From: Burkholderiaceae bacterium
GTDB lineage: Bacteria; Pseudomonadota; Gammaproteobacteria; Burkholderiales; Burkholderiaceae_C
Assembly: GCA_017856435.1 (NCBI GenBank)
Contig: JAFMFB010000002.1
Span: forward strand, 40,288-104,287
DNA: 64,000 nt
Direction of reading: 5' to 3'
The position numbers and the translations under genes were made by a program. This document shows positions 24,823-26,462 of this stretch, in pieces (position 1 is the stretch's first letter; every line of letters begins with the position of its first letter). Under the pieces are notes generated by a model, which was not told the origin of the DNA, searched no databases, and worked only from the letters and a program-made list of their open reading frames with translations.

Positions 24823-25791
24823 GTGATGGTTGACTTGCCCACTTTTTCTGACGTTGAGGCAGCAGCTGAGCGTCTTCGGGGTGTGGCTCATATCACCCCC
24901 GTAATGCGTTCTCAGACCCTGGATCATCGTCTGGGTGCCAAAGTTGTTTTCAAGTGCGAGAACCTTCAGCGCATGGGGGCCTTCAAATTCCGGGGTGCCT
25001 ACAACGCCTTGTCGCGCTTTGATGCCACGCAGCGCAAGGCGGGCGTGATTACTTTTTCCTCTGGCAACCACGCACAGGCCATCGCGCTGTCGGCCAAACT
25101 TTTGGACATGCCTGCAGTAATTGTGATGCCCGAGGACGCACCTCAGGCTAAATTGGCGGCGACCCGGGCTTATGGCGCCGAGGTCGTGATGTATGACCGT
25201 TACAAGCAGGACCGCGAAGCCTTAACCCGGGATTTGGCACAACTGCGGGGCTTGACCCTGATCCCTCCTTATGATCACCCGGATGTCATTGCGGGTCAGG
25301 GAACCGCTGCGCTTGAACTGATCCAGCAGGCCGGTGAGCTTGATGTGCTGCTGGTCCCGCTGGGCGGTGGTGGTCTGTTGTCGGGATCGGCACTTGCAGC
25401 CCGTGCGACTTCTCCCCAGTGCAAGATCTATGGGGTTGAGCCCGAAGCGGGCAATGATGGACAGCAGTCCTTGCGTGCTGGACAGATCGTTCACATTCAG
25501 ACGCCGCAGACCATTGCCGATGGAGCGCAAACCCAGCATCTTGGGCAATATACCTTTGGAGTGATACAGCGCGATGTGACCGACATCCTGACAGCTTCCG
25601 ACCAGCAACTCATTGAAGCCATGCAATTTTTTGCAGAGCGCATGAAGATCGTGGTCGAACCTACCGGATGTCTGGGGCTGGCTGCAGCCTGTCACGCCCA
25701 GCAGAGCTTGTCAGGCTTGCGCGTCGGGGTGATCATCAGCGGCGGCAATGTCGACATGCGCCGCTTTGGCCAATGGCTGACGCAGGCCTGA
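24823..25791 (+). CDS. Threonine/serine dehydratase (PLP, threonine ammonia-lyase-like)
   Basis: FKCENLQRMGAFKFRGAYNAL, SSGNHAQAIALSAKLL, PLGGGGLLSG. GTG 24823 or ATG 24826 start. Confidence 0.93.
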   Translation: MMVDLPTFSDVEAAAERLRGVAHITPVMRSQTLDHRLGAKVVFKCENLQRMGAFKFRGAYNALSRFDATQRKAGVITFSSGNHAQAIALSAKLLDMPAVIVMPEDAPQAKLAATRAYGAEVVMYDRYKQDREALTRDLAQLRGLTLIPPYDHPDVIAGQGTAALELIQQAGELDVLLVPLGGGGLLSGSALAARATSPQCKIYGVEPEAGNDGQQSLRAGQIVHIQTPQTIADGAQTQHLGQYTFGVIQRDVTDILTASDQQLIEAMQFFAERMKIVVEPTGCLGLAAACHAQQSLSGLRVGVIISGGNVDMRRFGQWLTQA

Positions 25792-25933
25792 ACAGCGCAA
25801 GATGGCGGCCTGACGCACAGGTTTGATGCCCAGGCTTATTGCATTTCCAGCGCAGGGCGTCCCCATTACTGATGGCAAGCTTGTGATGGGTTCCCCGTCA
25901 GCTTGATACAGGTCAAACCGCCTTTTTTTGTGA

Positions 25934-25962
25934 CTTGAAAACCTGCTCTGTGTCCGCATCAT
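25934..25962 (+). promoter_or_regulatory. Sigma32 (heat-shock)-like promoter upstream of hsp20
   Basis: CTTGAA (25934-25939), 14-nt spacer, CCGCATCAT (25954-25962), compared with the sigma32 consensus CTTGAA-N13-15-CCCCATNT. Confidence 0.65.
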
Positions 25963-26033
25963 GTTGACCTCCCGGTGACGAATGGCCATGGGGGTCATGG
26001 TCAGGTACCCGGGTTGATTCAAAGGAGGTTGAA

Positions 26034-26462
26034 ATGAGCTCACTGATCCGTCGTGGTGGTTTGTTCGATGATTTTTTTCGTGATTTTTCCCCTGGTTTTT
26101 ATGTCCGGCCTTTACATGGCGAGCCGCTGCCTGAGCCAGACAAGATCAAAGTGGATGTAAGCGAGAACGGAAATAGCTTTACGGTGCTGGCTGAAATTCC
26201 TGGTGTCAAAAAAGATGACATTCAGGTTTCAATCGACGGCAACATGGTCACCGTGAGTGCTGAAGTTAAGCAACAGGACACGCAAACTGGCGATGACAAA
26301 GTGTTGCGAAATGAACGCTACTACGGTTCGGTCTCGCGCTCCTTTTCATTGCCGCAGGACGTAGATGCTGCGCACGCCAAGGCAAAGTGTGACAACGGGG
26401 TGCTCACATTGACCCTGCCTAAAAAAGGCAACGGTGCGGCACAACGACTGAGGATTGACTAA
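26034..26462 (+). CDS. Hsp20/alpha-crystallin family small heat-shock protein
   Basis: VDVSENGNSFTVLAEIPGVKKDDIQVSIDGNMVTVSAEVK...SFSLPQDVDAAHAKAKCDNGVLTLTLPKK. Confidence 0.96.
   Translation: MSSLIRRGGLFDDFFRDFSPGFYVRPLHGEPLPEPDKIKVDVSENGNSFTVLAEIPGVKKDDIQVSIDGNMVTVSAEVKQQDTQTGDDKVLRNERYYGSVSRSFSLPQDVDAAHAKAKCDNGVLTLTLPKKGNGAAQRLRID

Follow-up and report, generated by a model that had tools for sequence, protein, structure and literature searches.

The small heat-shock gene hsp20, located in a 64,000-nt stretch of DNA that was analyzed as a whole (here called the window), appears to be regulated mainly at the level of transcription. We regard it as probable, with some reservation, that the gene combines a heat-shock-type promoter receiving low-oxygen input from Fnr with a protective stem-loop at the 5′ end and a Shine-Dalgarno (SD) sequence that stays open. 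In this model, σ32 holoenzyme would transcribe hsp20 upon heat shock, activation at low oxygen would come from Fnr bound in class I geometry about 60 bp ahead of the transcription start, the stem-loop would slow 5′-end-dependent mRNA decay, and ribosomes would load on the open SD within the linker. The SD-sequestering RNA thermometer proposed in a preliminary description of this DNA was tempting but unsupported, and is removed from the interpretation of the locus, which is mostly ordinary.

The window is part of a 2.57-Mb draft genome whose nearest named relatives are Burkholderiales, e.g. Polaromonas. The hsp20 gene (26034-26462, plus strand) encodes a small heat-shock protein of 142 aa with an alpha-crystallin domain (Pfam PF00011, 79.9 bits). 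Its upstream neighbour (24823-25791) was scored as threo-3-hydroxyaspartate ammonia-lyase, miaA faces it from the opposite strand, and a search for a terminator at the locus found none. Orthologs of hsp20 were gathered from the genus and the family, so that the counts given below refer to non-independent events, related by descent. A second, divergent hsp20-family gene (L002, G000:C37:31978-32211) lies in the same contig; CTTGAAATCTGTAGGTCCGGGGTC closely precedes the region in which its start is predicted.

The σ32-like promoter noted earlier in front of hsp20 was confirmed letter by letter on the plus strand. It consists of a −35 element, CTTGAA (25934-25939), and a −10 element, CCGCATCAT (25954-25962), separated by 14 nt. 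The 64 kb contain a single match to CTTGAA-N12-15-CCNCATNA, against 0.04 expected, which places the promoter beyond chance. At the equivalent position, many orthologs have CTTGA[AG]-N14/15-CCYTATAT or a closely similar sequence, and a σ32-like hsp20 promoter conserved in a large part of the relatives is therefore supported at the sequence level. The elements match the consensus of σ32-dependent promoters, CTTGAA-N13-18-CNCCATAT (as in PMC3669281), RpoH dependence being a reading of the sequence. The heat-shock reading of the hsp20 promoter is supported by htpG in this genus, whose leaders show a similar arrangement, CTTGAAA-N13/14-CCCATAAT. The window promoter also contains an alternative, weak σ70 pair (TTGAAA-N16-CATCAT), and the assignment to σ32 is unproven because the ortholog promoters fit σ70 as well (TTGA and, at a distance of about 17-18 nt, a −10 resembling TATATT).

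The geometry of the promoter points to a transcription start at about 25967-25971: σ70-like counting gives 25969, while placing the FNR-type box described below at the class I position of −61.5 gives 25971. Upstream regions of groES in the genus (L102-L122) mostly contain a CIRCE-like repeat, TTAGCACTC-N9-GAGTGCTAA, which suggests that this gene may be under HrcA control rather than that of a clear σ32 promoter.

The proposed thermometer involved TTGACCTCC (25964-25972, plus strand), which was thought to pair with the SD (AGGAGG, 26023-26028, plus strand) at low temperature and to melt on heat shock. The match itself is as described: TTGACCTCC is complementary to GGAGGTTGA (26024-26032) over 9 nt, with 7 Watson-Crick and 2 GU pairs, except that a single nt, rather than two, separates the helix from the ATG at 26034. 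The last two bases of TTGACCTCC are also part of the base of the stem-loop described below. For an RNA starting at or before 25964, an SD helix of at least 9 bp was reached by 0.9% of shuffled leaders (P = 0.009), which favours a thermometer. A start at 25967 leaves 6 bp, a length attained by 20% of the shuffles. Since later starts leave a match at chance level, the helix is notable only if transcription begins just 3 nt past the −10 octamer; the caveat attached to the original proposal, that the start may trim the 5′ side of the helix, proved decisive. Most of the anti-SD sequence probably lies upstream of the transcript, and would be an incidental or vestigial complement largely outside it. 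As this case illustrates, an SD complement needs to be weighed with both the transcript start and the orthologs in view.

Fold ensembles were computed for eight starts at four temperatures, each for the leader by itself and for the leader extended by 27 nt of coding sequence past the ATG. Occlusion of the SD was predicted only for starts 25964-25966. The leader-only fold from 25964 gives an SD pairing of about 70-74% at 20-37 °C, as a thermometer would have it, but this predicted occlusion is hardly thermosensitive: the unpaired fraction rises from 0.26 at 20 °C to just 0.33 at 42 °C. From 25967 on, the SD is predicted to be open at all temperatures: between 20 and 42 °C, starts at about 25967-25970 leave it 71-88% unpaired. 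In leader-only folds the unpaired fraction is 0.84 at 20 °C and 0.71 at 42 °C for start 25967, and 0.82-0.88 for starts 25968 to 25970; folds that include coding sequence give 0.80-0.83 at every temperature for starts 25967-25970. Folding across temperatures, the check suggested together with the thermometer, thus predicted no marked heat-dependent opening of the window SD between 20 and 42 °C. The fold originally envisaged, an outer helix around an inner hairpin, is missing the CCCGG/CCGGG extension of that hairpin and is for this reason less stable than the 37 °C minimum by several kcal/mol (e.g. −20.0 versus −25.1 kcal/mol in the leader-only fold from 25964). A thermometer would require a start no more than 3-5 nt past the −10 octamer, which is implausibly early.

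Orthologous leaders were examined in a set of 42 with a good promoter, in which SD accessibility was compared with that of dinucleotide shuffles. No occlusion of the SD beyond the shuffles was found in these leaders at four starts in two contexts (one-sided p 0.82-0.98); in an example setting, mean accessibility was 0.43 in the leaders versus 0.40 in the shuffles (n = 42). The longest SD complement was no better than chance in any of the orthologs either. This shuffle test is weak for a single leader, as shown by E. coli ibpA, whose SD accessibility at 20 °C, though low (0.00-0.16 over the leader lengths examined), ranked anywhere from the lowest twentieth to the middle of its own shuffles.

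The remark that the helix is unlike textbook ROSE or fourU elements agreed with motif and Rfam searches. The ROSE motif U(U/C)GCU opposite the SD was present in none of the 42 leaders, including that of the window (2.95 expected by chance), and no TTTT characteristic of fourU lies between 25963 and the SD, nor was there an Rfam match to it. No Rfam thermometer matched the window or any of 20 orthologous loci. The E. coli ibpA leader, a positive control, was recognized as ROSE_2 (RF01832) at 100.4 bits. The hsp20 leader shares with it a σ32-type promoter and a 5′ hairpin ahead of a small heat-shock gene, but neither the window nor the 20 loci matched this family. Genome-wide, no accepted match to RF01832 or RF00435 was found, the positive control covering RF01832 only; a weak RF01832 match at L171 (27.7 bits, below the cut-off) was discarded, as it overlaps a long open reading frame.

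The nearest relative, L004 (83% protein identity), has a different 7-nt helix in an equal layout, UUUCUCU/GGAGGAA. With a start directly after the −10 octamer, its SD is predicted to open from 0.11 unpaired at 20 °C to 0.46 at 42 °C, in line with a thermometer, but moving the start another 3 nt downstream abolishes the helix. At the earliest possible start, the window and L004 can both close the stem-loop with different SD-pairing helices, and in these models the two helices are the sole remaining hint of SD control. Given the window ensembles and the ortholog tests, by which an SD-sequestering thermometer was rejected, modelling does not support a thermometer reading of the hsp20 leader, and we consider it improbable.

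The leader contains a 5′-proximal stem-loop of 15 bp (25971-26013, plus strand), composed of CCCGG/CCGGG, AC/GU and TGGCCATG/CATGGTCA with the loop GGGGT, as predicted in the leader-only fold. The hairpin GGCCATG-GGGGT-CATGGTC at 25984-26002 had been described exactly, and extends to this larger structure. With the predicted start at 25967-25971, the stem-loop would stand at the 5′ end or within about 4 nt of it. Comparable stem-loops are conserved among the orthologs; in the median they begin 6 nt past the −10 octamer, comprise 10.5 pairs capped by a 5-nt loop, and end 16 nt ahead of the SD. The leaders could be placed in only poor structural registers by multiple alignment, because stem lengths differ, and claims on structure therefore rest on z-scores and controls. 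Mean fold-stability z was −1.54 in the 42 leaders versus −0.20 in the sequence preceding the promoter, and −1.42 for hsp20 leaders versus −0.41 in 43 control genes (p = 1.8e-4). The window leader alone (z −0.86) has no significant structure relative to its own shuffles. When coding sequence was added, its inner hairpin was outcompeted by a leader-coding fold (probability about 0.07-0.28 at 37 °C, starts 25967-25970), although the SD stays open. In a few leaders a loop-linker pseudoknot could be drawn by eye, but this was not general.

Leaders of htpG (z −1.27) and groES (z −1.76) also fold above chance, so the stem-loop is not specific to hsp20, and stable folding looks like a trait of heat-shock leaders. 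This agrees with an unlikely, though not negligible, alternative in which the stem-loop has another role (a ribosome standby site, or a target of an sRNA or protein) or is a functionless by-product of GC-rich heat-shock leaders: stem sequences showed no conservation among the leaders, structure alone being common. Stability exceeding that of dinucleotide-keeping shuffles and the conserved place beside the predicted start argue against it.

Conserved leader structure before a small heat-shock gene could also mean that Hsp20 binds the stem-loop and represses its own translation, for which there is a gamma-proteobacterial precedent in E. coli IbpA acting on its own 5′ UTR (PMC10474464). However, in an ungapped register (LYQGIAERNFERKFQL / LRNERYYGSVSRSFSL) read manually, the essential Arg93 is replaced by Gly and the basic Lys98 by Ser; automatic pairwise alignment took another register. 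With a key residue apparently missing and stem sequences varying among leaders, IbpA-style autoregulation was set aside as very improbable.

A protective role of the stem-loop would be in keeping with established examples. Stem-loops at the 5′ terminus stabilize mRNAs of the E. coli ompA type. The hsp20 leader resembles this type in having a stable stem-loop at or beside the 5′ end and a linker with the SD, the stabilizing role being putative here. Stabilizing 5′-terminal stem-loops are mentioned in general terms in PMC3669281, where hairpin I of Pseudomonas ibpA, a GC-rich 5′ structure that does not melt, was proposed to protect the mRNA (Krajewski et al., PMC3669281). The short ROSE-like ibpA leaders of Pseudomonas (PMC3669281) likewise combine a σ32-type promoter, a leader of about 60-70 nt and a GC-rich, non-melting 5′ hairpin with a small heat-shock gene. 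Unlike them, the hsp20 leader lacks the UYGCU motif and the SD-pairing hairpin II, and its SD is predicted to be open. The hsp20 leaders resemble a hairpin I that lacks the thermosensing hairpin II.

Upstream of the promoter lies an FNR/Anr-type box, TTGATACAGGTCAA (TTGAT-ACAG-GTCAA; 25903-25916, plus strand), which agrees with the consensus at 9/10 positions. Its centre (25909.5) is located at about −58 to −61.5 from the predicted start. Scores of at least 9/10 were obtained in 29/55 ortholog upstream regions, and the gap between the box and CTTGA is exactly 17 nt in 23 of the 35 orthologs scoring at least 8. A box scoring at least 9 was found in none of the 24 htpG and none of the 21 groES upstream regions. 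The genome encodes Fnr (NF008365, 234.5 bits; cut-off 228), with an N-terminal C-x2-C-x5-C motif and an E-T-V-S-R recognition helix. Genome-wide, the box gave 25 strand-matches versus 5 for a reversed-pattern control, a five-fold difference. Conservation of the box at constant spacing to the −35 element suggests low-oxygen control of hsp20, and Fnr input to the promoter is probable.

An FNR-type box (TTGA-N6-TCAA) is also found upstream of a small heat-shock protein gene in Rhizobium leguminosarum, rlv_1399 (PMC11784457). That box has its centre at −87.5 relative to the start codon and is accompanied by a second, imperfect box upstream, whereas hsp20 has a single box; the text of that paper makes no mention of sigma or RpoH, and here the box stands at a fixed distance from a σ32-like promoter. 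Low oxygen induces the small heat-shock protein in Rhizobium in an FnrN-dependent manner (PMC11784457), and two such proteins rise in micro-oxic B. cenocepacia (PMC3759415), which is consistent with Fnr input at hsp20. These features raise the question of an oxygen-sensing activator acting on a heat-shock sigma promoter and coupling low oxygen to chaperone supply. That one promoter integrates heat and oxygen across the family, with Fnr at about −61.5 in class I position on a σ32-type hsp20 promoter, together with a 5′ stem-loop common to heat-shock mRNAs, is a tentative proposal that we find possible but doubtful. A perfect FNR palindrome, TTGATGTAAATCAA, was observed on the minus strand of L168 (box at 1500), 70 nt upstream of an ORF that starts with MYQKILVATDGSSLSKKAV and reads like a universal stress protein.
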